This document shows positions 8,550 through 20,888 of a stretch of 64,000 bases of DNA, piece by piece. Numbering within the stretch: position 1 is the first letter of the stretch; each line of letters starts with the position of its first letter. Made by a program: the position numbers and the translations under genes. The DNA is taken from NCBI RefSeq assembly GCF_004342625.1, contig NZ_SMAH01000008.1, forward strand, positions 62,001-126,000. Reading direction: 5' to 3'. The notes below the pieces were generated by a model. It did not search any database. It was not told where the DNA came from and saw only the letters and a program-made list of their open reading frames with translations. The DNA comes from Tepidimonas ignava (GTDB taxonomy: Bacteria; Pseudomonadota; Gammaproteobacteria; Burkholderiales; Burkholderiaceae_C).

Positions 8550-9422
8550 TCACACCCCCACCAGATGACGCCGGTAGCGCACGGGCATGTCCGTCAGGCG
8601 CATCATCAGCGGCAGATCGGCGGTGTTGAAGTCGGGGTCCCACGCCGGCGGCCCCAGCACTTTAGCGCCCAGCCGCAGGTAGCCCTTGAGCAACGCCGGG
8701 GGTTCGACAGGCAGCGTGTCGTCCAGCGCCTGCAGCGGCAGCGGCACGCGCGGCTGCACGCGCCATTCGATCGGGGCCAGATGGAGCTGGCGCACCTGCC
8801 GCCAGATGCTGGCCGCGGCGTGCCCCCCTGCGGCTACGCCATGCGCTCCATCGTACTGCATCGGGATACTGGCGCACCCGATCATCATATCCAGGCCGTT
8901 GCGCACCATAAAATCGGCCAGCGCCTTCCACAGCGCCATGATCACGCCGCCATGGCGGTGTTGTGGGTGGACACACGAGCGGCCCAGCTCCACCATGCGC
9001 TCGCGCCAAGCATGCAGGCGCGTCAGGTCGAATTCCGTGTCGCTGTAATAGCACCCGACCCGTTTGGCTTGCGCCGGGGTCAGGACTCGGTACGTACCCA
9101 CCACGTCGCCGTGCATCGGCTCGCGCACCAGCAAATGCTCGCAGTAGTCGTCAAACAGGTCGCAGTCGTGGCCGGGCAGCGGCGTTTGCAAGCGCGCGCC
9201 CATCTCCAGCGCAAACACCTGGTAGCGCAGCCGTTGCGCCGCACGCACTTCGTCGAGGTGCCGCGCCCACACCACGTGCCAGCCCATCGGGTTCGACGGC
9301 GCCTTGGCACCAACCGCCTCGGCCCGAGCGCCAAGGGCCACTCGCCCCACCGTCGTGGCGTCGGCCAACGAACCTGACCTCGGGTGAGCGGGCAGCACGG
9401 GGGTTGGCAATACATCCATCAT
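8550..9422 (-). CDS. olsB: OlsB-type ornithine N-acyltransferase (GNAT fold)
   Basis: The product has 290 residues. The start at ATG 9422 follows GGAG at good spacing. After a variable N-terminus, residues from about 50 onward match the OlsB/haemolysin-like acyltransferase family: RLRYQVFALEMGA, FDDYCEHLLV, GTYRVL, and ELGRSCVHPQHR. OlsB transfers a 3-hydroxyacyl chain from acyl carrier protein to ornithine, giving lyso-ornithine lipid. The divergent neighbour encodes the second step. Pho-box-like repeats upstream fit the known induction of ornithine lipids under phosphate limitation. The substrate is inferred from the pairing, as some family members have other roles. Confidence 0.8.
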   Translation of the reverse strand: MMDVLPTPVLPAHPRSGSLADATTVGRVALGARAEAVGAKAPSNPMGWHVVWARHLDEVRAAQRLRYQVFALEMGARLQTPLPGHDCDLFDDYCEHLLVREPMHGDVVGTYRVLTPAQAKRVGCYYSDTEFDLTRLHAWRERMVELGRSCVHPQHRHGGVIMALWKALADFMVRNGLDMMIGCASIPMQYDGAHGVAAGGHAAASIWRQVRQLHLAPIEWRVQPRVPLPLQALDDTLPVEPPALLKGYLRLGAKVLGPPAWDPDFNTADLPLMMRLTDMPVRYRRHLVGV

Positions 9423-9484
9423 GGTTGATCTCCGCGGGGTTGTACGGGGCGTCGTGAGCCCCGCACCGCCGCATTGTTCGCGGG

Positions 9485-9517
9485 CTGTGTGACACGGCGT
9501 TGGCGCTTGCGTGTCAA
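9485..9517 (-). promoter_or_regulatory. Three tandem Pho-box-like repeats upstream of olsB
   Basis: Reading leftward from 9517, three adjacent 11-base units are TTGACACGCAA, GCGCCAACGCC and GTGTCACACAG. Each keeps part of the PhoB repeat (cores GACA, GCCA, GTCA at exact 11-base steps). The last unit is the best match. It lies 60-95 bases before the olsB start. Confidence 0.45.
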
Positions 9518-9565
9518 TGGCATGACCACCACCCGAAGGCGGCCGGGCGCGTGCCGTGCGTGCTG

Positions 9566-9583
9566 CTGTCACAACGTCGTCAC
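9566..9583 (+). promoter_or_regulatory. Pho box upstream of olsA
   Basis: CTGTCACAACGTCGTCAC has two GTCA cores exactly 11 bases apart and an intact first CTGTCA half. It faces olsA and lies about 92 bases before its start. A matching -10 at the expected distance is poor (CAGCAT), so promoter placement is uncertain. Confidence 0.55.
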
Positions 9584-9674
9584 ACGGGCGCGGCAGCATC
9601 GGCAACGCACGCCAGCCAGCGCCCACGTGCCAGCCTGATGCGGGCGCCGGCCCCCCTTGCGTTGACCGATCACG

Positions 9675-10556
9675 ATGACGACGCTGTTCCCACCCACCCC
9701 CTCCCGCCACAGCCCTTCCGTCGGCGCGTTGCCCAACCACGCCCGCAGCGACGATGCGCCCCGACGTCCCCCGTGGCGCGTGGGCGCGGCCAGCTGGATG
9801 CGGACATGGCGCCTGGGGGCTCATCTGTTGCGCGGTGTGTCGGCGACACAGTGGGGCTGGGCGCGGCTGCCAGACCCGCAGCGTCACCAACGCATCCAGG
9901 CCTGGGCCCACAATGTGCTCAACACGGTGGGTCTCCGGGTTGCGGTGCGCGGCACGCCGCCAGCTCACGGCACGGGGGCGTGCATCGTGGCCAACCACAT
10001 CTCGTGGCTGGACATCCCCGCGTTGCTGAGCGTGCTGCCCTGCCACTTCGTGGCCAAAGACGAGGTGGCGCGCTGGCCGCTGGTGGGTGGTTTGGCCCAG
10101 CGTGCAGGCACGCTGTTCGTGCCACGTGGCCAAGCGCTGGCGCTGCGCCAACTGCACACCGCGTTGTGCGACCGCTTGCGTTCAGGCGCATCGGTGGCCA
10201 TCTTCCCCGAGGGCACCACCACCGACGGCCGCCATGTGCGCCCCTTCTTTCCCGCCCTGCTGCAACCGGCGATCGACACCGCCACCCTCGTGTGGCCGGT
10301 GGCGTTGCGCTACCGGCGCGGCGACGGGCTGCCCGGCCCCAACGTGTGGGCCTACTGCGGCGAGATGACGTTGTGGCAGTCGATCCGACGTGTGTGCCGG
10401 CAGCCGTCCGGCGTGGTGGAAGTGCACTGGTTACCACCGATCAACCCGGCCCATCTGTCACGCCAGACGCTGGCTCGTCGGGCGCATGCGGCCATCGTCA
10501 GCGCCCTCACTGAATCCCCAGCCGCTTCATGCGCTCCCACAGGTTTTTGCGGCTGA
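9675..10556 (+). CDS. olsA: OlsA/PlsC-type 1-acyl-glycerol-phosphate or lyso-ornithine-lipid acyltransferase
   Basis: The product has 293 residues with the PlsC family signatures: the catalytic HX4D block NHISWLD (near residue 107), a middle motif around LFVPRG, and FPEGTTTDG for phosphate or headgroup contact. A hydrophobic segment around 40-60 could associate it with the inner membrane. Paired head-to-head with olsB, it most likely adds the ester-linked fatty acid to lyso-ornithine lipid; such enzymes can also make phosphatidic acid. The 3' end overlaps the end of arxR by 50 bases on the opposite strand. Confidence 0.8.
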   Translation: MTTLFPPTPSRHSPSVGALPNHARSDDAPRRPPWRVGAASWMRTWRLGAHLLRGVSATQWGWARLPDPQRHQRIQAWAHNVLNTVGLRVAVRGTPPAHGTGACIVANHISWLDIPALLSVLPCHFVAKDEVARWPLVGGLAQRAGTLFVPRGQALALRQLHTALCDRLRSGASVAIFPEGTTTDGRHVRPFFPALLQPAIDTATLVWPVALRYRRGDGLPGPNVWAYCGEMTLWQSIRRVCRQPSGVVEVHWLPPINPAHLSRQTLARRAHAAIVSALTESPAASCAPTGFCG

Positions 10557-11874
10557 TGCCCAAGGCCTCGGCGGTCACACCGATCTGCCAACCGTGATGC
10601 GCGAGGGCGCGCTCGATGTAGGCGCGCTCCTGCTGACGCAGGTAGTCCTCCAAGCGCACCATGCCGTCGCCGTGGCCCGCCGGGCACCACCCGTCGCTGC
10701 CCTGGTCCGACGCAGCGGGCGGTGGCGCCACCGATTCGGGCACCGACTCGCTCAGCAGCAGCGGGTCGAGCTCCTCGTCCACCGCCAACAGGCAGGCACG
10801 CTCGATGGCGTTGCGCAACTGGCGAACGTTGCCGGGCCAGCGCTGCGCCCCCAGCCAAGCCTCGGCGGCCGCGCCAAGCCGGCGTGCCCTGCCGGGATGG
10901 GCCTCGTTCCACTGGGCCACGAAGCGCTGCGCCAACCAGACGATGTCCTCGGGGCGTTCGCGCAGCGGCGGCACGTGCAGGTGCACGACGTTGATGCGGT
11001 AGTACAAGTCCTCCCGAAACTGGCCGGCGCGCACCGCCTCGTGCAACGGCCGATGGGTGGCGAAAATCAGCCGCACGTCGAGCTGCTGCGGTTTTTCCCC
11101 GCCCAGTCGGGTCACCTGGCGGTCTTGCAGCACGCGCAGCAGGCGCGCCTGCAGCGTCAGTGGCATGTCGCCGATTTCGTCCAGAAACAACGTGCCGCCG
11201 CTGGCCTGCTCGAACAGCCCACGGTGCGCGCGTGCCGCCCCGGTGAACGCGCCGCGCTCGTAGCCAAACAATTCGGCCTCGATGAGGCTTTCGGGCAGCG
11301 AAGCCGTGTTGACGGCGATGAACGGGCGCTGCGGCCCAAGCGTGTCGCGGTGCAAACAGCGCGCCAACTCCTCCTTGCCGGCCCCCGACTCACCGGTGAT
11401 CAACACGGTTTGCCAGTGAGGTCCCAGCCGCTGCACGAGCGTGTACAGCCGCCGCATTTCGCCCGAAACGCCCAGCGGGCACGAGCACGTGCCGCCCAAC
11501 CCCGACGGGGTGCGCCCGGGTTGCGCCAAGTGCCGCAGATGGCGCAACAGCCGATCCATGTCCAACGGCTTGGTCAAAAAATCGAGCGCACCGCGGGCCA
11601 ACAGCGTCTCGCGCAGCGCGTGCGACCCGTAGCCGGTGATGAAAATCCAGGGCACGCTTCGCCAGCTCGCCGGCAGCGTTTGGGGCAACTGCGTGCCATC
11701 ACCGTCGCCCAGGCGCACGTCGCTGATGACGACATCGGGTGCCGGGTCGCGCTGCGCCGCCTCGGTCACGTCGCGGGCGCTGCGCCACCAGCGGCAGTGC
11801 ATCCCTTCAAGGTGCAACCGCTCGGTCAACGCTTCGCCCATGAAAGGGTCGTCTTCGATGAGGTCGATCACCAT
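10507..11874 (-). CDS. arxR: ArxR, sigma-54-dependent response regulator
   Basis: The product has 455 residues. A receiver domain (about 1-115) has acidic residues EDD near residue 8 and phospho-acceptor Asp52 in ISDVRLGDGDG. The AAA+ domain has Walker A GESGAGKE (161-168), the sigma-54 contact loop GAFTGA (208-213) and Walker B LFLDEIGD. A Fis-type helix-turn-helix (VTAEALGISRKNLWERM) ends the protein. The start at 11874 has AGGAAG upstream and overlaps the arxS stop. It should bind the two palindromes at 14286-14345 and open the -24/-12 promoter of the arx operon. It resembles AioR of arsenite-oxidase regulation. Confidence 0.88.
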   Translation of the reverse strand: MVIDLIEDDPFMGEALTERLHLEGMHCRWWRSARDVTEAAQRDPAPDVVISDVRLGDGDGTQLPQTLPASWRSVPWIFITGYGSHALRETLLARGALDFLTKPLDMDRLLRHLRHLAQPGRTPSGLGGTCSCPLGVSGEMRRLYTLVQRLGPHWQTVLITGESGAGKEELARCLHRDTLGPQRPFIAVNTASLPESLIEAELFGYERGAFTGAARAHRGLFEQASGGTLFLDEIGDMPLTLQARLLRVLQDRQVTRLGGEKPQQLDVRLIFATHRPLHEAVRAGQFREDLYYRINVVHLHVPPLRERPEDIVWLAQRFVAQWNEAHPGRARRLGAAAEAWLGAQRWPGNVRQLRNAIERACLLAVDEELDPLLLSESVPESVAPPPAASDQGSDGWCPAGHGDGMVRLEDYLRQQERAYIERALAHHGWQIGVTAEALGISRKNLWERMKRLGIQ

Positions 11875-13397
11875 GGTGTGCTTCCTGTTGGCTCGGGGCC
11901 TTGGGTCGGCAGCGCATCCGCCACGCCCGCCGGGTCGGGCGCGGGCACGAACAGCGCTTCCAACACGGTGGCCCACGGTGGCTCGGACACCAGGACCAGC
12001 CGGCCACCGTGGTCGGCCATCAGCCGCGCGCTGACCCACAAGCCCAGCCCGACCCGCCCTTGCCCCTGCCAACCTTGGCCACGAACCAAAGCGTCGAAGC
12101 TTGCTTGCGTCAACGCCGCGCCCGTGTTGGCCACACGCAACCGCCACCCCTGCGCGGTGGCCCGGCCATGCACCAACACCTGCCCACCACGGCCGGCCGC
12201 GGTCAACGCATTCAGGCACAGGTTCAGCACCACCTGCCGCACCGTCAACGCGGGCAGCGCCAGCGTGGGCGAGTTCAATTGCCACCGCAGCGCGACGCCG
12301 GCACGCTCGGCCATCGGCAGCAACAACGTGTGCATGTCGTCCAAATCCTGCGGTTGCAGCGCGTGCTGCTCGCCGCGCGCTTCGTTGAGCAGGGCCTGCA
12401 CCGTGGCGTGGATGTGACGCAAGCCACGCTCCAACACATCCAGCGTGCGCGCCGTCGCATCGTCCAGGCCCCCGCGCAGCCGGCGGTTGTCCAACGCGGC
12501 CAGCATGCCCCCGATGGGGTTGTTGACCTCGTGGGCAATGCTGGCGCTCAGCTGCCCGACCCGGGCCAGGCGTTCGGCTTCCAGCACGTGCCGCTGCAGG
12601 TGCCGCTGCGCATCCAACTGCCGCAACATGGCGGCGTAGGCGCGCGCCAGATCGCCAACGTCGTCGCGGCGTTGCAACAGCGGCTGCAGCGCTTGGTCCA
12701 ACCATGGCTGGGCCCACTCGTCGCTGTGCCCCACTTTGCGCATCGAGTCGCGCAACGCCACTATCGGGCGCGCCAGACGCCAACCCAACCACGCCCCCAC
12801 CACCGCGGCCACGGCCAGCGATACCGCGCCAACCCCGGCCATGCGTTGCAGCAAGGGCTCACGCTGGCGCGTCGTCAACCCCGATGGGTGCACCGCCAGC
12901 ACGGTGCCCAACTGCAGCCCCTCCTCACCAACGATCGGCTCGGCCATCACCAGCACCGGTTGGCGCTCGCCGGCGACCCACGGCAGCAGCATGACGTCGC
13001 GTTCCGTCTGCTGCGACAGCCGCGCCGCCTGCGCCAAATGCGCGGGCAGACCAGACACGTGCAAACCCAGCGGGTAGCGCAGCGGCAGCGACGCGGCCAA
13101 CACCCGCTCGTCGTCGCCCAGCACGACGACCTCACTGGGCTCATCGGGAAACGACGCCCCGGCCGCGCGAACGATCTGGTACGTCTGCCAGACATCCCCG
13201 CGCACCACCGGCTCGACCAGGGCCTGCGCCAGCGTGCGCGCGAGGCGGCGGGTTTCCTCCTGGGCCGTCAGGCGCACCGAGCGGTCCACCACCACCAGCG
13301 CCGCCAACCCCACCAACACCCCTCCCAGCAAGGCCATGCCCACCGTGGTCAGTGGGACCAACCAGCGCAACGGCAGCCGTGCACGCGCAGCGCTCAC
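11868..13397 (-). CDS. arxS: ArxS, membrane sensor histidine kinase
   Basis: The product has 509 residues. A transmembrane helix at about 12-36, a periplasmic domain to about 185 and a second helix at about 188-206 are followed by a HAMP-like linker. The dimerisation domain has phospho-acceptor His289 in SIAHEVNNP, and an HATPase domain follows (N box around NLCLNALTAA, G box VGLGLWVSARLMADHGG). The GTG start lies 4 bases after the arxX stop, with GGGGGTG upstream. It should receive the arsenite signal from the periplasmic ArxX and phosphorylate ArxR. No unusual loss of catalytic residues was seen. Confidence 0.87.
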   Translation of the reverse strand: MSAARARLPLRWLVPLTTVGMALLGGVLVGLAALVVVDRSVRLTAQEETRRLARTLAQALVEPVVRGDVWQTYQIVRAAGASFPDEPSEVVVLGDDERVLAASLPLRYPLGLHVSGLPAHLAQAARLSQQTERDVMLLPWVAGERQPVLVMAEPIVGEEGLQLGTVLAVHPSGLTTRQREPLLQRMAGVGAVSLAVAAVVGAWLGWRLARPIVALRDSMRKVGHSDEWAQPWLDQALQPLLQRRDDVGDLARAYAAMLRQLDAQRHLQRHVLEAERLARVGQLSASIAHEVNNPIGGMLAALDNRRLRGGLDDATARTLDVLERGLRHIHATVQALLNEARGEQHALQPQDLDDMHTLLLPMAERAGVALRWQLNSPTLALPALTVRQVVLNLCLNALTAAGRGGQVLVHGRATAQGWRLRVANTGAALTQASFDALVRGQGWQGQGRVGLGLWVSARLMADHGGRLVLVSEPPWATVLEALFVPAPDPAGVADALPTQGPEPTGSTPW

Positions 13398-13400
13398 GGG

Positions 13401-14285
13401 TCACCCCCAACGGCGCGCCATGCGCGCAATCGGTTCGTACCAACGGGACTGGCCCACGACAAAACCGTCCAGTTGCAACTCCCTGAGCACGTGCGCGCCC
13501 TCGGGGTTGTCGGCCATGCCCAGCAGGGCACGCGTCAGCACGTGCTTGCGTCCGGCGCTCAAGGCCGGCCCCGCCACCACGGGCGGAAACGCGTAGGGCT
13601 GGGACTGCCACAGCACACGCGTGCCCCGCACCCGGCTCGGCTCGCGCGCGCGCAACCACTCCCACACATAACCATCCACGGCCCCCGCATGCGCCAGCCC
13701 TTCGCGCACGGCCTCGACCACGTGCCGGTGGGCATGGGTGAAAAAGGTTCGGGCAAAGAACGTCTCGGGCGTTTGACCTTGTTCCAACAAATGCGCACGC
13801 ACCACCAGGTGCCCGGAATTGGACAACGGGTCGGAAAACGCAAACACGCTGCCTCGCAGGTCGTCCCAGCGCGTCGAGGGTTGCTCCTCGCGCACGATGA
13901 CGTACGCCCGGTAGCTTGGTTGCCCCTGCCACAGCGGCACCGCCAGCAGCGCCAGTGTGTCGCGGTGCAGCACGTACGGGTAGCCGCACAACCAGGCCGC
14001 GTCGAGCGAACCTTGCCGCAAGGCTTCGACCACCCGGTTGTAGCCCGCCAGGGAGCGCAGCTGCACCGGCACGCCGCACGCGTGCGATAGGTACGCCGCC
14101 CAGCGCCGCCACAACCGCAGACGGTCTTCCAGCACCACGGGCGTCACCCCTATCACGATGGGACGCTCCTGGGCCTGCACCAGGCACCATCCGCCCGTCC
14201 AGGCCACCGCGCTGCCCAGCCGCAGCAGGGCACGCCGCCTGACGTCGGCGGTCGACGCTGTGCGGGCCACGTGTCGCGCAACCAT
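13401..14285 (-). CDS. arxX: ArxX, PhnD/AioX-like periplasmic oxyanion sensor
   Basis: The product has 294 residues. An N-terminal RRRALLRLG segment followed by a hydrophobic stretch suggests export, possibly by Tat. The rest matches the phosphate/phosphonate-type binding proteins (PhnD family): VIGVTPV, GYNRVVEALRQGSLDAAWLCGYPYV, and SNSGHLVVRAHLL. AioX, the arsenite sensor of AioXSR systems, belongs to this family. Position ahead of arxS and arxR supports the same role here. ATG 14285 directly abuts one palindrome; ATG 14324 in frame would put that palindrome inside the gene. Neither has a strong Shine-Dalgarno. Confidence 0.83.
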   Translation of the reverse strand: MVARHVARTASTADVRRRALLRLGSAVAWTGGWCLVQAQERPIVIGVTPVVLEDRLRLWRRWAAYLSHACGVPVQLRSLAGYNRVVEALRQGSLDAAWLCGYPYVLHRDTLALLAVPLWQGQPSYRAYVIVREEQPSTRWDDLRGSVFAFSDPLSNSGHLVVRAHLLEQGQTPETFFARTFFTHAHRHVVEAVREGLAHAGAVDGYVWEWLRAREPSRVRGTRVLWQSQPYAFPPVVAGPALSAGRKHVLTRALLGMADNPEGAHVLRELQLDGFVVGQSRWYEPIARMARRWG

Positions 14286-14303
14286 GGTTACCCGATGGTA
14301 ACC
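14286..14303. promoter_or_regulatory. Palindromic operator 1 (probable ArxR site)
   Basis: GGTTACCCGATGGTAACC is a perfect 7-bp inverted repeat around CGAT. It immediately precedes the arxX ATG at 14285, where it could also control arxXSR. Its centre is about 178 bases upstream of the predicted arx start site, typical for a sigma-54 enhancer site. Confidence 0.75.
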
Positions 14304-14329
14304 ACACAACCACCCATGGCCCATCCGGT

Positions 14330-14345
14330 GTTACCCGAAGGTAAC
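14330..14345. promoter_or_regulatory. Palindromic operator 2 (probable ArxR site)
   Basis: GTTACCCGAAGGTAAC repeats operator 1 with only the centre changed (CGAA for CGAT), keeping 6-bp arms. Its centre is 43 bases from that of operator 1, about four helical turns, so two dimers would lie on the same face of the DNA. Confidence 0.75.
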
Positions 14346-14444
14346 CGTTGGCCACCGCCCCCACACCGTTGCGCGGCCCGCGCACACCGTCAAAGCCCTT
14401 CGTGCCCCAGGGTTGTCCGCGACCGTGCGTGGGTTGAACGCTGG

Positions 14445-14462
14445 TTGGCACAGCGCTTGCTT
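14445..14462 (+). promoter_or_regulatory. Sigma-54 (-24/-12) promoter of the arx operon
   Basis: TTGGCACAGCGCTTGCTT matches the sigma-54 consensus TGGCAC-N5-TTGC with correct spacing. The GG is at 14447-14448 and the GC at 14459-14460. Transcription would start near 14472, some 34 bases before the first arx reading frame. The nearby activator gene encodes a GAFTGA-containing protein. Confidence 0.9.
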
Positions 14463-14505
14463 AATCCAGCAAGCCATCGATCACAACCACCACCAGGAGA
14501 CAACC

Positions 14506-15735
14506 ATCGAACGCCAAGCCTTGCGGGCTGACCGCCCCCTGCTGCACGCCGAAGCCTCGTGCCTGCCGCTGCGCAGTCGGCACGGCCAGTGCCGCGCCTG
14601 CGCCAACGCATGCCCCCGCGGGGCGTTGATTGTGGACGTGCAAGGTGTGACGTTGTCGGACGATTGCACGGGCTGCGGTGTGTGCGTGGCGGCCTGCCCC
14701 ACCGAGGCGCTGATGCTGCCCGAGCTGCTGGACGAGCCAATGGCCACCCCGTCCGCAAGCGCCGCCACGGGCCAACGTCGCAGCGTGGAGTGCCGGATGG
14801 TACCCGAGGCGCGCCGTGAAGCCGGCGCCACGGTGCTGCCCTGTCTGGGCGCGCTGCGCGTGGGGCAGTTGCTCCAATGGGTCCAGCAAGGCCAAACGGT
14901 GACCATCGTCGACCGCGGGTGGTGCCGCGACTGCCCAACGCGCGGGGCCGCCACACCGGCGGCGCAGTCCGCCGACGGCCCAAGCGGCGCCGCGCCCCTG
15001 CCCGCCGCGGCGTGCATGCCCGCGGCCGACGCCGTGGAAACCGCCAACCTGTGGCTCGAAGCCCTGGGGGCCAGCGAGCGCGTGACGGTGGTGTCAGCAC
15101 CGTTGCCGGTGTCGCTGCGCCCGGCGGCGCTGCCCCCGGCCGACGACGCCGGGCCGACGCTCGATCGACGTGCCTTTTTCCACCACGCGGTTCAGCGCCC
15201 GGCCGGGCGCCACCGGCAAGTCCAGCCGATGGGGGGCAACGGGCGCGCCGCGTACCCGGCGTCGCAACGCAAGCCGTCGCCGGAGCGCACCCGGCAACAC
15301 CAGGCGTTGCAGGCGCTGGCGCAGCGCCAAGGGACGGCGGTGCCCGCGGAGTTTTACCCCCAATTGCACGCCAGTGACGCCTGTTGCGACGACCGCATGT
15401 GCGTCGCGCTGTGCCCCACGACCGCACTGACGGCGGCCGACGACGGGGCCACGGCACGGCTGCTGTTCGACCCGGCGCACTGCATCGCCTGCCGCGCCTG
15501 CGAACGCGCCTGTCCCCACGGGGCGCTGACCCTGCAAGCGTACGGCGGCGCGGCCACCGTGCAAACGCTGGCCACCCACGCCCGCTTGGTGTGCCGCGGT
15601 TGCGGCGACACCTACGCCGCCACCGGCTCCCCCAGCGTGGACAACGGCCTGTGCCCGTTGTGCCGCAAAACCCAGTCTTTCATCGATGACGCCCGACGCC
15701 AACTGTTTGGCGCGGGACCGCTGCCGCTGGTGTAG
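14506..15735 (+). CDS. arxB2: ArxB2, multi-cluster 4Fe-4S ferredoxin-type protein
   Basis: The product (about 409 residues) has two ferredoxin-like halves. CRACANACP and CTGCGVCVAACP lie near the N-terminus, and CCDDRMCVALCP and CIACRACERACP near the C-terminus. A CxxC...CxxC ribbon (VCRGCG, LCPLCRK) follows. It is the first gene of the arx operon and probably passes electrons to or from ArxAB. The start is unusual. The good AGGAGA at 14495 sits 6 bases before ATC 14506; the next in-frame candidate is TTG 14521, and ATG 14413 lies upstream of the predicted transcript start. The middle third, between the halves, is low-complexity and unrecognised. Confidence 0.82.
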   Translation: MERQALRADRPLLHAEASCLPLRSRHGQCRACANACPRGALIVDVQGVTLSDDCTGCGVCVAACPTEALMLPELLDEPMATPSASAATGQRRSVECRMVPEARREAGATVLPCLGALRVGQLLQWVQQGQTVTIVDRGWCRDCPTRGAATPAAQSADGPSGAAPLPAAACMPAADAVETANLWLEALGASERVTVVSAPLPVSLRPAALPPADDAGPTLDRRAFFHHAVQRPAGRHRQVQPMGGNGRAAYPASQRKPSPERTRQHQALQALAQRQGTAVPAEFYPQLHASDACCDDRMCVALCPTTALTAADDGATARLLFDPAHCIACRACERACPHGALTLQAYGGAATVQTLATHARLVCRGCGDTYAATGSPSVDNGLCPLCRKTQSFIDDARRQLFGAGPLPLV

Positions 15736-15768
15736 TTCACTTTGCCACCCACGAGAGGAGAAACGACG

Positions 15769-18255
15769 ATGGGCTTGATGGAAAAAATCGTACCGCCTGC
15801 GCTGTCGCGGCGACGCTTTTTGCAGGCCACGGCCGCCAGTGGTGCCGCGGCGTCCCTGGTCGGCGGCCAGACGCTGCAACCCACCCAGGCGCAACCCGCC
15901 GCGGCCGCCCAGGGCAGCCAGACGACGATCACCAAGAACATCTGCCACCAGTGCCCGGCGCGCTGCGGCATCGACGTCTACACCACCGATGGCCGCGTGC
16001 ATGCCATTTACGGCAACACCGACCACCCCATCGCCAACGGCAAGCTGTGCCCCAAAGGCCCCTTGGGCACCTACATCCTGTACGACCCAGACCGCTTCAA
16101 GGGCCCCATGAAGCGCACCAACCCCAAAAAAGGGCGCAACGAAGACCCGAAATTCGTGCCCATCAGTTGGGATGAAGCGCTGCAAACGGTGGCCGACCGC
16201 CTCAACGCCTTGCGCGACAAGGGCGAAAGCCACCGCTTCGCCCTGGTGTATGGCCGCGGTTGGGGCGCCAGCTGCGCCGGCCTGCAAGGCACGTTCGGCA
16301 AGCTGTACGGCAGCCCCAACGTCGGTATTGGCCACAGCTCGATGTGCTCCGACGGCAGCATCAAAAGCAAACAGGCCACCGACGGCAACGGCAGCTACAA
16401 CGCGCACGACTACCGCAACTGCAACTACCTGTTGCTGTTCGGCTGCGGCTTCCTGGAGGCGTTCCGGCCGTACAACAACGTGATGCAAATGTGGGGCTAC
16501 ATGCGCACCAAGAGCCCCAAGACGCGCGTGACCGCCGTGGACGTGCACATGAACACCACGCTGGCGGCCAGCGACCGGGCGCTGCTGATCAAGCCCGGCA
16601 CCGACGGCGCGCTGGCGCTGGCCATCGCCCACTACATCCTGGTCAACGGGCTGTGGGATAAAAAATTCGTCGGCGACTTCAAAGACGGCGTCAACCGGTT
16701 CAAGCCCGGCCAAACCGTCCAAGCCGACACCTTTGACGAGAAATGGGTCAAAGGGCTGGTCGATTGGTGGAATATCGAACTCAAAGACCGCACGCCGAAG
16801 TGGGCCGCAGAGGTCACCACCATCTTGGAGCGCGACATCGTCGCCACCGCACACGAATTCGGCACGACCCGCCCCGCGATGGCGATTTTCGAGCGCGGCG
16901 CGCACGCCCACAGCAACGGCATCCTCAACGGCATGGCCATCCACTCGCTCAACGCGTTGGTGGGCTCGCTGTTCGCCAAGGGCGGCATGATGTACCAAAT
17001 GGGTGTGCCCTACGGTCCGCTGCCGGTCAACGAAGAGGACTACATGGACGATTACGCCAAAAACGGTCCATGGAAAAAGTACCCCCGCATCGACCTCAAG
17101 GGCCACGAGGACGGCTACCTGCTCGCCAACAACATGCTGCAGGAGGTCGGCCCCAACTCGCTCAAGGGCAAGCCGTACAAGCTCGACACCATCATGTTCT
17201 ACCAGAACAACGCGGTGTGGACGGCGCCCAACGGCCAGCAGTGGGAGGAAGCCCTCAAGGAGCTGTTCGTCATCGACACCAGCCCGTTCCCCGGCGAAAC
17301 CGCGATGATGGCGGACCTGATTTTGCCGGACCACACCTACCTGGAGCGGTTGCAGGACGCGCCGACCTACCCGTTCGAGGGCTGGCCGATGACGCAGCTG
17401 CGCGTGCCGGCGATCAAGCCGCTGTACGACACCAAGTACTACGGCGACGTGCTGATCGAAATCGGCAAACGCATCAAAGGCCCCATGGGCGAGTACTACA
17501 AAGCCCTCAAAGACACGGAAAACGTGTTGCGCCACCTGGCCAAGGGCTTCGAAGCCAACCCCGGCGACAACGGCGTCAAGGACTTCGAGAGCTGGAAAGA
17601 AAAAGGCGTCTGGTACAAAAAGCCCTACCTGTGGCAACAACGCGATGGTGAGTTCTACGAGTGGGACGGCAAGGATTACACCAAGAAAATGACCCCAGAA
17701 GAGGTCAAGGCCAAGCTGCTCAAAACCCCATCCGGCAAATTCGAATTCCGCTCCGGCTGGCTCGAAACCAACGCCGACTGGATCGCCGCCAAGACGGGCC
17801 GTGACAAAGCCAAGCTGATGTTCCCGCATTGGGAAGAGCCCAAGCACCCTGGTGGCGGCGACCTGTACATGGTCACGCCCAAGGTGGCGCTGCACGCCGA
17901 AGGCCGCGGCGGCAACATCCCGGTGGCGATTTCGCTGCTGCAACCGGTCATGGGCGGGCGCGATCAGGTGTACATCGAAATCCACCCTGAAACGGCGCGC
18001 AAGCGCGGCATTCGCGACGGCGACCTGTGCCGCATCAAGTCGGAAGTGGGTTCCATCACCGGCCGGGTGCGTTACTTCGAGGGTGTGCGCCCCGACACCT
18101 TGGTGTTCCCGATGGAGCACGGCCACTGGGCGATGGGACGTTGGGCCAAGGGGCGCGCCCCCGGTCACTCCGGCGAGGTGACGGTCAACCAGAGCGACCG
18201 GATCTCAGGCCAGTGCAATTACTACTCGACCAAGGTCACGATCGAAAAGGTCTGA
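15769..18255 (+). CDS. arxA: ArxA, molybdopterin arsenite oxidase catalytic subunit
   Basis: The product has 828 residues and is a DMSO-reductase-family enzyme close to ArrA/ArxA. A Tat signal (SRRRFL, 13-18) directs folded export. The 4Fe-4S motif is C59-x2-C62-x3-C66-x27-C94. GRGWG lies at 162-166, a motif I recall as separating ArxA from arsenate reductase ArrA. Cys193 in HSSMCSDG is the likely molybdenum ligand. Later segments bind the two molybdopterin guanine dinucleotides. ATG 15769 has GAGGAG about 8 bases upstream. The enzyme should oxidise arsenite to arsenate in the periplasm, passing electrons through ArxB to ArxC. Identity rests on the motifs plus the complete arx gene order. Confidence 0.88.
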   Translation: MGLMEKIVPPALSRRRFLQATAASGAAASLVGGQTLQPTQAQPAAAAQGSQTTITKNICHQCPARCGIDVYTTDGRVHAIYGNTDHPIANGKLCPKGPLGTYILYDPDRFKGPMKRTNPKKGRNEDPKFVPISWDEALQTVADRLNALRDKGESHRFALVYGRGWGASCAGLQGTFGKLYGSPNVGIGHSSMCSDGSIKSKQATDGNGSYNAHDYRNCNYLLLFGCGFLEAFRPYNNVMQMWGYMRTKSPKTRVTAVDVHMNTTLAASDRALLIKPGTDGALALAIAHYILVNGLWDKKFVGDFKDGVNRFKPGQTVQADTFDEKWVKGLVDWWNIELKDRTPKWAAEVTTILERDIVATAHEFGTTRPAMAIFERGAHAHSNGILNGMAIHSLNALVGSLFAKGGMMYQMGVPYGPLPVNEEDYMDDYAKNGPWKKYPRIDLKGHEDGYLLANNMLQEVGPNSLKGKPYKLDTIMFYQNNAVWTAPNGQQWEEALKELFVIDTSPFPGETAMMADLILPDHTYLERLQDAPTYPFEGWPMTQLRVPAIKPLYDTKYYGDVLIEIGKRIKGPMGEYYKALKDTENVLRHLAKGFEANPGDNGVKDFESWKEKGVWYKKPYLWQQRDGEFYEWDGKDYTKKMTPEEVKAKLLKTPSGKFEFRSGWLETNADWIAAKTGRDKAKLMFPHWEEPKHPGGGDLYMVTPKVALHAEGRGGNIPVAISLLQPVMGGRDQVYIEIHPETARKRGIRDGDLCRIKSEVGSITGRVRYFEGVRPDTLVFPMEHGHWAMGRWAKGRAPGHSGEVTVNQSDRISGQCNYYSTKVTIEKV

Positions 18256-18285: not shown

Positions 18286-19044
18286 ATGGCGAAATGGGGC
18301 ATGGTCATCGACCTGGACAAGTGCACCGGCTGCCAAGCCTGCACCACCGCCTGCGCGATGGAGAACAACCGGCTGCCCGGCGAAAACTGGCAAGACGTGC
18401 TGTTCTACCATGAGGGCACGTACCCGAACGTCAAAATCCAGTGGTTCCCGCGCCCGTGCATGCACTGTGAGAACCCGTCGTGCGTGAGCGTGTGCCCGAC
18501 CGGGGCCACCTACAAGATGAAGGACGGCGGCTACGTGCTGATCGACTGGAACAAATGCATCGGCTGCAAAGCCTGCATGGTGGCGTGCCCGTACGGGGTG
18601 CGCTTCTACACCGACGAAAAGGCCGTCGTGCAGCCCGATGTGCGCAGCGTCTTCCCGGGCAAAAACGGTCGCCAGTGGGATCCCCCCTACAAAGGCCCTT
18701 ATGACGATCCCACCCACGGTGTCGGCATCCAACCGCATGGCGTGGTGTCCAAGTGCACTTTCTGCTACCACAAAACCAGCACCGCGCCCAAAGGCGTGGC
18801 GGATCTCGACGAGGACGATCCCGCCACCAAGGAGCACACCCCCGCGTGCGTGCGGGTGTGCCCGCCCAAGGCGCGTTACTTCGGTGACCTGGATAACCCC
18901 AACAGCAAGGTCAACAAACTGATCGCCGACAAGCGTGGTGTGCGGCTGCTGGACCACACGGGCAACAAGCCGCAGGTGTACTACCTGTCGGGTGGCGCAG
19001 GCGCGGCCGTGCCCAGCACCCGTGCCGATGAACGCAAGGCCTGA
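18286..19044 (+). CDS. arxB: ArxB, four-cluster iron-sulfur subunit
   Basis: The product has 252 residues and is a DmsB/PsrB-type electron-transfer subunit. Four cysteine groups bind 4Fe-4S clusters: CTGCQACTTAC, CMHCENPSCVSVCP, CIGCKACMVACP, and CTFC with CVRVCP. It has no signal peptide and is expected to be exported attached to ArxA. It follows arxA by 30 bases with AAGGAGA upstream, and links the molybdenum subunit to the membrane protein ArxC. Confidence 0.9.
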   Translation: MAKWGMVIDLDKCTGCQACTTACAMENNRLPGENWQDVLFYHEGTYPNVKIQWFPRPCMHCENPSCVSVCPTGATYKMKDGGYVLIDWNKCIGCKACMVACPYGVRFYTDEKAVVQPDVRSVFPGKNGRQWDPPYKGPYDDPTHGVGIQPHGVVSKCTFCYHKTSTAPKGVADLDEDDPATKEHTPACVRVCPPKARYFGDLDNPNSKVNKLIADKRGVRLLDHTGNKPQVYYLSGGAGAAVPSTRADERKA

Positions 19045-19065: not shown

Positions 19066-20223
19066 ATGACCACCTTGGCCTCATCACGTCCCGCCGCACC
19101 CGCTGGCAGCCCGATGGGCATCGTGCTCATCGTCGCGCTGGTCGGTTTGGTGGCCAGCGCTGCTTACGTCATCGGCCAACTGATGGCCCATGGGCACACC
19201 GCCTACAACGGCGACAGCCGCGGCATCTTCTGGGGGTTGCCGATCGTCACGTACGACTTCTTCCTGCTGTCGTCCACCGGGCTGGCCATGCTGGCGTCGG
19301 TGTGGACGGTGTTCCGGGTCGAAGCCTACCGGCCTATCGCGCGCCGTGCGCTGTGGCTGGCGGTGGCGGCTCTTGTGGGTGGCGTGGCCGCGCTGTTCCT
19401 TGAGCTCGGCTACCCGCTGCGCGCCATGTTCATGATCCCCTTCTCCGGCGCCACCAGCGCGCCGCTGTTTTGGAAGGTCTGGGGCGTGATCGTTTACTCG
19501 CTGGCGCTGCTGTGGCTCATCGTCGGCTGGCTGCTGCCCGGGCGCGACGAACCGCCGCGCGCCGCGGCCGTGCTGGCGTTGGTGGCGGCGGTGTACATCA
19601 CGTTCGTGGCCGGCGGCGTGTACGGTTGGATGTCGATGCGTCCGTTCTGGTACGGCGGCGAGATGTCGCTGGCGTTCTTGGTGGAGTCGCTGCTGGGTGC
19701 GGTCACGTTCGTCATCATCTTCACCCACCTGGCCCATGGCTTCAACGCCGACCGCCTGGACGAGCCGACGCGCACGCTGTTTGCCGGGCGCCTGGGCGGC
19801 TTGTTCGCGATCCTCATGATCGCGCACGCGTTTTTCGTGGTTTCGCGCCTGATCGCTGGGCTGTACGCCAACGCCGATGGCATGCAGGTGTGGCACCACC
19901 TCTGGAGCCGCCCGATGTTCCAGGTCGAACTGTGGGTCGGGCTGGGCCTGCCGATCGTGCTGACCGCAGTGCCCTCGCTGCGCCGCAACCTGCAGCTCCA
20001 ATTGCTGGCCGCCGTCGTGGCCGTGGTGGCGCTGTTCGTCGCGCGCTACGACTTCGTCATCGGCGGGCAGTTGGTGCCCTTGTTCAAAGGCAGTTGGGTG
20101 CACGGCCTGCTCGAGTACCACCCCTCGGCGGCGGAGTGGGCGGTGCTGGCGCTGTCCATCTTCCTGTCCAACACCATCAACGCCCTGGGCGAAAAACGCC
20201 TGGCTTTGGATGAACGCGCATGA
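19066..20223 (+). CDS. arxC: ArxC, NrfD/PsrC-type membrane anchor and quinone-reacting subunit
   Basis: The product has 385 residues with about ten hydrophobic helices, as in NrfD/PsrC proteins (for example GIFWGLPIVTYDFFLLSSTG near residue 50 and the last helix around EWAVLALSIFLSNTINALGEK). It anchors the ArxAB heterodimer on the periplasmic face and exchanges electrons with the quinone pool. AAGGAGA precedes the ATG. The last codons overlap the arxD start by ATGA, so translation is coupled. Confidence 0.9.
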   Translation: MTTLASSRPAAPAGSPMGIVLIVALVGLVASAAYVIGQLMAHGHTAYNGDSRGIFWGLPIVTYDFFLLSSTGLAMLASVWTVFRVEAYRPIARRALWLAVAALVGGVAALFLELGYPLRAMFMIPFSGATSAPLFWKVWGVIVYSLALLWLIVGWLLPGRDEPPRAAAVLALVAAVYITFVAGGVYGWMSMRPFWYGGEMSLAFLVESLLGAVTFVIIFTHLAHGFNADRLDEPTRTLFAGRLGGLFAILMIAHAFFVVSRLIAGLYANADGMQVWHHLWSRPMFQVELWVGLGLPIVLTAVPSLRRNLQLQLLAAVVAVVALFVARYDFVIGGQLVPLFKGSWVHGLLEYHPSAAEWAVLALSIFLSNTINALGEKRLALDERA

Positions 20224-20888
20224 GCGATCCCTTGTCCTGTGCGGCCACCGGTGATGCTCCCCAACCCATCACCGACCGCCTTGCCCGAGCCGACGCGTAC
20301 TGGCTGCTGGCTCGGGCCTTTTTGCCTCCTCCACGCGGATGGTTGTTGTCCCAGTGGAGCGAGCCGCTGCTGAGCGACTTGGCCGATCTGGCCCCCACCC
20401 TGGGCCTGGACCTGACCCGGCTGCACACGGCCGTGGCCACCGTGCAAGCCCAGCGGGCGGCCCTGGAAAGCGCGGGCGGGCCGATGGCCGACTGGTTGGT
20501 GGCGTATTCGGCCATCTTCCTAACCCCCCCTGTGGATGCCCCTCTCAACACGGGGCTGCTTTTGGAGGGCTCGCTGGCCGGCACCGTGGCGCAACAGGCG
20601 GCCCAGTGCTACCGCGAGGGGGGCTTTGCACCTGCCGAAAACTTCCGGGACCTGCCGGACCACGTGGCCATGCAATTGGAGTTCGTGGCCCATTTGCTCG
20701 AACGCGCCGAGCAAGGTGACGAAGCGGCCGAGGCGCTGGCGGAGGATTTTGTGCGCCATTTCGTGGCGGCTTGGGCCCCGTTGCTGGAACAAGCGTGCCA
20801 GCGCGCCACGGCGCGGGAACCCGGCGCCCTCGTGTGGGCGGCGCTGGCGCAGGTGATTCAACAGCTGCTGCCCGCGCCCACGGTCTGA
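20220..20888 (+). CDS. arxD: ArxD, TorD-family molybdoenzyme chaperone
   Basis: The product has 222 residues, all-helical in appearance, and matches the TorD/DmsD family. Features include RADAYWLLARAFLPPP near the start, the LLEGSLAGT region and PENFRDLPDHVAMQLEFVAH, a version of the family's conserved DH-exposing motif. Such cytoplasmic chaperones hold the Tat-exported molybdenum subunit until cofactor insertion. It overlaps arxC and is followed after 9 bases by a cytochrome c gene. Confidence 0.88.
   Translation: MSDPLSCAATGDAPQPITDRLARADAYWLLARAFLPPPRGWLLSQWSEPLLSDLADLAPTLGLDLTRLHTAVATVQAQRAALESAGGPMADWLVAYSAIFLTPPVDAPLNTGLLLEGSLAGTVAQQAAQCYREGGFAPAENFRDLPDHVAMQLEFVAHLLERAEQGDEAAEALAEDFVRHFVAAWAPLLEQACQRATAREPGALVWAALAQVIQQLLPAPTV

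Follow-up and report, generated by a model that had tools for sequence, protein, structure and literature searches.

The 64,000-nucleotide stretch of Tepidimonas ignava DNA analysed here (the window) carries a standard arx cluster, in which arxX, arxS and arxR diverge from arxB2, arxA, arxB, arxC and arxD; relatives of ArxX, ArxS, ArxR and ArxA were found. On the minus strand, arxX (13401–14285) encodes a periplasmic phosphonate/arsenite-type binding protein (Pfam Phosphonate-bd, 208.6 bits), arxS (11868–13397) a sensor histidine kinase that matches HATPase_c above the cut-off and HisKA and HAMP slightly below theirs, and arxR (10507–11874) an NtrC-type response regulator. The latter combines a receiver domain, a sigma-54 AAA+ domain with the GAFTGA loop, and a Fis-type helix-turn-helix (HTH) domain with the recognition helix ISRKNLWE. 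On the plus strand follow arxB2 (14506–15735; iron-sulfur protein), arxA (15742–18255; molybdenum subunit of an anaerobic arsenite oxidase, with an open reading frame from TTG and ATG 15769 as the likelier start), arxB (18286–19044; iron-sulfur subunit, up to 97% identical to relatives), arxC (19066–20223; NrfD-like membrane subunit) and arxD (20220–20888; TorD-like chaperone). ArxA scores below the ArrA cut-off in NCBIfam, there is no ArxA model among the NCBIfam matches, and no AioA above the family cut-off was found in the genome. Of the named relatives among the best 80 of 131, Tepidimonas sediminis is nearest to this locus (ArxA 92%). Adjoining arxR, the product of positions 8550–10157 (minus strand) contains an Acetyltransf_5 domain (119 bits) and matches a FeeM-like N-acyl amino acid synthase below threshold.

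The genome has one sigma-54 gene (rpoN) and six Sigma54_activat matches; four of these are strong, ArxR among them. A six-frame search of the window returns GAFTGA once, at 11253 on the minus strand inside ArxR, in agreement with the first-pass annotation, which had named this operon as the source of the only GAFTGA activator there.

The spacer between arxX and arxB2 measures 220 bp, from the arxX start at ATG 14285, a position common to relatives (an alternative in-frame ATG lies at 14324), to the arxB2 start near 14506. Since there is no in-frame ATG, GTG or TTG between the predicted transcript start and TTG 14521, arxB2 starts at either ATC 14506 or TTG 14521. The sequence AGGAG at 14496–14500 precedes the ATC, and T. 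sediminis (L009) has the identical ACAACCATC; translation of arxB2 may begin at this rare codon. A transcription terminator was sought in the spacer, and none was found.

Two palindromes, both predicted ArxR operators, lie within this spacer. The distal one, GGTTACCCGATGGTAACC (14286–14303), is an 18-mer of the form GGTTACC-CGAT-GGTAACC that abuts the arxX start codon; the proximal one, GTTACCCGAAGGTAAC (14330–14345), is a 16-mer of the form GTTACC-CGAA-GGTAAC. As already described in the first-pass annotation, they are near-identical copies of one site, with starts 43 bp apart and the arms GTTACC and GGTAAC in both, and both fit the 16-bp form GTT-N10-AAC of AioR/ArxR-type sites. The proximal palindrome is followed 100 bp further on by a predicted sigma-54 promoter, TTGGCACAGCGCTTGC (14445–14460, plus strand; TTGGCAC-AGCGC-TTGC), with GG at −24 and GC at −12. 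Transcription would start near 14472, 12 bases past the −12 element, which puts the centres of the palindromes (14294.5 and 14337.5) some 177 and 134 bp upstream of that point, close to the 178 and 135 bases estimated at first.

Within the window, GTTACCNNNNGGTAAC is matched three times at up to two mismatches, compared with 0.55 expected from shuffles (one shuffle in 100 reached three), and its two exact matches are the distal and proximal palindromes. In the whole genome (2.71 Mb, 32 contigs), exact GTTACC-N4-GGTAAC occurs at these two places only, and the reversed-pattern control nowhere. At up to two mismatches, the 19 places found genome-wide compare with 52 for the reversed control, so that degenerate single sites are meaningless. 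A wider ArxR regulon was considered on account of the single one-mismatch site in the genome, C3:75605, which lies directly upstream of an iron superoxide-dismutase-like gene; this site was treated as chance because it is unpaired and because loose matches are fewer than in the control. The promoter has the only exact TGGCAC-N5-TTGC in the window (14446–14460). Matches with at most one mismatch are at chance level there (10 found, 11.9 expected), and the weight of the promoter therefore comes from its conservation.

Conservation was assessed in the best 80 of 131 relatives together with the window, by scanning the 400 bp before arxB2 or arxA. Eight of these 81 loci, with a contig end too near the genes, were omitted from site counts, and the raw counts include close relatives several times (Aromatoleum, Ectothiorhodospira, Thiocapsa). 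A search of other arx loci for the same palindrome, as had been proposed, finds tandem sites in 30 of the 37 loci with divergent arxX (window included), and at least one site with up to two mismatches in 35 of them. The sites depend on nearby arxXSR: none occurs in the 16 loci that have at least 3 kb upstream and no tblastn match to the window's ArxX, ArxS or ArxR within the fetched stretch. Dinucleotide-shuffled sequence yields a site in 0.9% of cases and never a pair. Eleven further loci without detected arxXSR, all on short contigs, include three with a site and one with a pair; nine with arxR in another orientation include one with a pair. The pair is absent from seven of the 37 divergent loci, and L080 has no site at all before arxB2; this locus has a palindrome pair at 13288 and 13320 (spacing 32 bp), some 2.3 kb downstream of arxD.

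When exact inverted repeats (arms of 6, gaps 0–12) are tallied without reference to any motif, GTTACC with a gap of 4 comes first, in 19 of 36 loci (window excluded), the next best repeat reaching six. In nine aligned loci of the window's clade, at a mean identity of 53%, what stays invariant is essentially the two palindromes, the arxX CAT and the promoter TGG/TTGC. Chance palindromes are excluded by the window shuffles, the uniqueness in the genome, the conservation in relatives and the motif-free count. The middle four bases vary freely, and the conserved half-site is GTTAC[C/G], with frequencies at its fixed positions inflated by the picking of sites by motif. Of the recognition sequence first proposed, GTTACC-CGA(A/T)-GGTAAC, the half-site is thus retained in the form GTTAC[C/G]; the CGA(A/T) core was too specific. 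Neighbouring sites are spaced by four or three helical turns, with 21 of 33 spacings at 42–44 bp and 10 at 30–34 bp.

Palindromes also occur in other places. A further exact copy lies inside the arxB2 coding region, about 0.25–0.55 kb from its start, in three cases (L048:7294, L051:7290, L152:4617). In three groundwater betaproteobacteria with arxXSR undetected on the contig (L037, L050, L064), a different palindrome, G[TC][TC]GCC-N4-GGCAAC, is found 30 bp before arxB2.

With at most one mismatch and no more than 250 bp upstream, a −24/−12 element is present in 23 of the 37 divergent loci, in none of the 16 without arxXSR and in three of the nine with another arrangement, at a shuffle rate of 0.7–1.3%. 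It is absent at this threshold from 14 of the 37; palindromes accompanied by a poor promoter occur in Thiocapsa (L020/L021), in Ectothiorhodospira (L025/L026) and in L048, L061 and L081. Measured between the −12 C and the nearer palindrome's centre, distances cluster near 65, 76, 87 and 99 bp, with single values of 108.5, 117.5, 122.5 and 144.5 bp; the window, at 122.5 bp, is among the longest. Across 26 loci, excluding any whose promoter has more than two mismatches, these distances are periodic, with a vector length R of 0.74 at a period of 11.4 bp that none of 5000 jittered sets equalled (p 0.0004 with one entry per distinct distance). A set of 22 hand-picked loci under the same exclusion, with distances typed by hand, gives R 0.742 at 11.4 bp and 0.54 at 10.5 bp; the best period exceeds that of B-DNA. 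Despite its longer spacer, the window is 1.0 bp off the phase of the other hand-picked loci. Such phasing is what looping from one helix face would require.

Bending by IHF was considered as a general rule and rejected, as IHF-like sites between operators and promoter are found in some relatives only and not in the window, whose GC-rich spacer has no IHF consensus. Exact sites occur in three of 28 spacers (L011, L013, L033), and seven of 28 have a site with at most one mismatch (adding L014, L016, L017 and L062), against shuffle rates of 0.002 and 0.029, respectively; in L011, L013, L014 and L016 they lie near 49 bp from the −12 element.

Taken as a two-way control region, the spacer would work as follows. 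Arsenite would be sensed by periplasmic ArxX and the kinase ArxS. Phosphorylated ArxR dimers would bind both GTTACC-N4-GGTAAC palindromes, four helical turns apart, and then oligomerise. From there, ArxR would contact sigma-54 RNA polymerase waiting at 14445–14460, about 122 bp further on and on the same helical face, and so activate transcription of arxB2ABCD. With the distal palindrome set against the arxX start codon, occupied sites would probably also lower expression of arxXSR. Judged from sequence, a tandem ArxR-bound enhancer that drives sigma-54-dependent arxB2ABCD transcription, coupled to autoregulation of arxXSR, is very probably the correct reading; conservation, phasing and covariation with the ArxR helix (see below) all favour the first-pass suggestion that the tandem sites are upstream activating sequences of the sigma-54 promoter.

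The autoregulatory part of this reading is suggested by the position of the distal palindrome, which leaves no gap to the arxX start codon. In eight of 17 loci inspected, all of the window's clade, an in-frame arxX ATG lies one base past the distal half-site (GGTAAC[C/G]ATG); L078 and L085 have an arxX start 0–1 nt from it. The start region of arxXSR would be covered by bound ArxR, and negative autoregulation is likely in these species. These positions would also suit palindromes that serve mainly as an autoregulatory operator of arxXSR, with the arxB2 promoter driven otherwise, and as no sigma-70 promoter for arxXSR was recognised in 14200–14560, that promoter may overlap the sites. The sites are, however, phased to the −24/−12 element, and in L040, L039 and L086 about 100–160 bp separate them from the arxX start that lies closest to the protein match. 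Moreover, L087 has arxXSR downstream of arxD on the same strand and still keeps both palindromes and an exact promoter before arxB2, from which it follows that the sites belong to the enzyme operon. A mainly autoregulatory operator is thus improbable.

Still less credible is a role of the palindromes as RNA hairpins, in attenuation or in masking of the arxX start, instead of as DNA operators. The distal palindrome would form a 7-bp stem right before the arxX AUG, but folding is unexceptional (z −1.3 and −1.7), the proximal site falls outside the arxX leader in most loci, and both sites are kept in sequence and not merely in pairing, with variable middle bases.

The ArxR recognition helix varies together with the operator. 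The helices SRKN (28 loci, three without a site), SRKS (two) and SRKT (two) pair with GTTACC; at base 6 of the half-site, C is found in 79 of 100 SRKN half-sites (G in 19), in seven of eight for SRKS and in five of six for SRKT. TRKT (L044, L067, L069) pairs with GTTACG in 10 of 10 half-sites. In seven loci from alphaproteobacteria, arxXSR lies upstream on the same strand and the helix is SRTT, GRTT or GRST; these loci have no GTTACC site, and by eye all seven carry GT[TC]CGG-N4-CCG[AG]AC palindromes. One of these, GTTCGGATTTCCGAAC in L029, is the sequence that AioR of Agrobacterium tumefaciens GW4 is reported, in the text available, to protect before mcp (PMC5335332). The ArxR of L029 has GAFSGA in place of the usual sigma-54 contact loop GAFTGA. 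A strict one-residue recognition code was rejected: GTTACC accompanies SRKT in Thiocapsa as well as TRKN in Sulfuricella, and base 6 can therefore not be put down to any one residue.

In a phylogeny of 45 ArxR sequences with the HTH left out and operator labels assigned by hand (GTTACC as default), the operator class changes twice, which is the minimum, and each time together with the helix. The operator therefore follows the regulator and not the enzyme, with two changes on the tree behind the covariation. Binding by a regulator other than ArxR may be weighed against this, as the genome encodes three further strong sigma-54 activators; that the site type tracks the ArxR helix type, that sites are missing from all 16 loci where arxXSR was not found, and that the exact site is nowhere else in the genome make it very unlikely. 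ArxR remains the favoured ligand.

NtrC-type enhancers, such as those of glnA and others, consist of paired palindromes of about 16–17 bp that share a helical face and lie far upstream of a −24/−12 promoter; they differ from the window sites in sequence and regulator. Closer counterparts are the AioR upstream activating sequences of aioBA, which, as far as the accessible text of the reports goes, share with the window the form GTT-N10-AAC, two tandem copies, an RpoN −24/−12 promoter and adjacent XSR genes (PMC3834237, PMC5335332, PMC6011840). AioR reportedly binds GTT-N10-AAC (PMC5335332); all 12 aioBA operons that have aioXSR are described as carrying a −24/−12 region and two palindromes in tandem, the AioR-type sites lying 100–200 nt upstream and only where XSR genes are present (PMC3834237, both in the portions available). 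Compared by eye with the published 16-letter AioR motif from 12 aioBA regions, as given in the available part of PMC5335332, each window palindrome is off at position 7, with C where A/G is given. The window differs from aioBA in that its operon is arx and divergent, its half-site is GTTACC as opposed to GTTCGG, and its palindromes are spaced by 43 bp as opposed to 33 bp in NT-26 and Agrobacterium. In NT-26 and another Agrobacterium strain, AioR has the helix SRTT, and aioB is preceded by two sites of the GTTCGG type at a spacing of 33 bp. A Paraburkholderia AioR with the helix SRKS is accompanied by the GTTACC site GTTACCGGACGGTAAT, and in Burkholderiales aio loci GTT-N10-AAC stands before aioB in seven of 11, six of them with GTTAC; by the strict pattern, these loci mostly have one site, not two. 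The palindrome type is consequently not peculiar to ArxR, since AioR of the aerobic arsenite oxidase uses the same type.

For arx itself, Badilla et al. (2018; PMC5908839, in the text accessible) predicted an RpoN promoter, tggcaaggctattgct, and a putative ArxR site in Alkalilimnicola ehrlichii MLHE-1, drawing on homology to AioR of NT-26. This case involves the same genes and the same idea as the window, but the putative 14-base site, gtaacaattcaagc, is not a palindrome of the window's type. Two 2019 papers state, in their available portions, that control of arx by ArxXSR had yet to be shown (PMC6549141, PMC6683785), and no mapped ArxR site was found in the open literature searched. By their sequence, the sites would count among the sigma-54 enhancers of the AioR/ArxR class, and they are defined here for the ArxR of beta- and gammaproteobacteria. 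New here are the distal site abutting the arxX start codon, a contact absent from the first-pass annotation, and the occurrence of the same tandem beside other molybdoenzyme operons.

The latter emerged from a search with the tandem pattern GTTACCNNNNGGTAACN{26,28}GTTAC, which is present in three of 369 genomes sampled from the class and two of 398 from the phylum; these samples overlap, both contain the window's genome, and the phylum sample has one reversed-control match. The other genomes with the pattern are G772 and G895, of one genus in the gammaproteobacterial class, and G318, of the window's order. In G895, one tandem separates an XSR set (44, 32 and 48% identity to that of the window) from an operon of an ethylbenzene-dehydrogenase-like (EB_dh) haem protein, a NapC/NirT cytochrome, an iron-sulfur protein, NrfD and the start of a molybdoenzyme. 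A second precedes an iron-sulfur protein and an 838-aa molybdoenzyme that is below every NCBIfam cut-off. Both contexts recur in G772 on short contigs (loci L145, G895:C27, and L146, G895:C69; L147 and L148 in G772). A palindrome with one half-site beside a NuoA-like gene (G895 C149) is probably chance. G318 (L152, G318:C1:18001-36000) has arx with its own tandem and, 7.5 kb away, a second one at 11808 and 11850, before an 886-aa molybdoenzyme that is 26% identical to ArxA and below all NCBIfam cut-offs; a scan recognised no −24/−12 element there. The two extra molybdoenzymes share only 27% identity. It is conceivable, though somewhat doubtful, that the XSR regulator and its tandem GTTACC palindrome together make up a portable cassette, one whose recognition code can be read and which has been attached to several different enzymes of the DMSO-reductase family. 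If so, genome searches for the tandem could reveal unrecognised arsenic- or antimony-metabolising enzymes.

With an operator, a spacing rule and a match between helix and operator, control of arx by ArxXSR becomes testable with short DNA probes, and arx and related loci can be recognised by their control region. The loci also offer a small natural data set on how the recognition helix of an NtrC-type regulator sets its DNA specificity.
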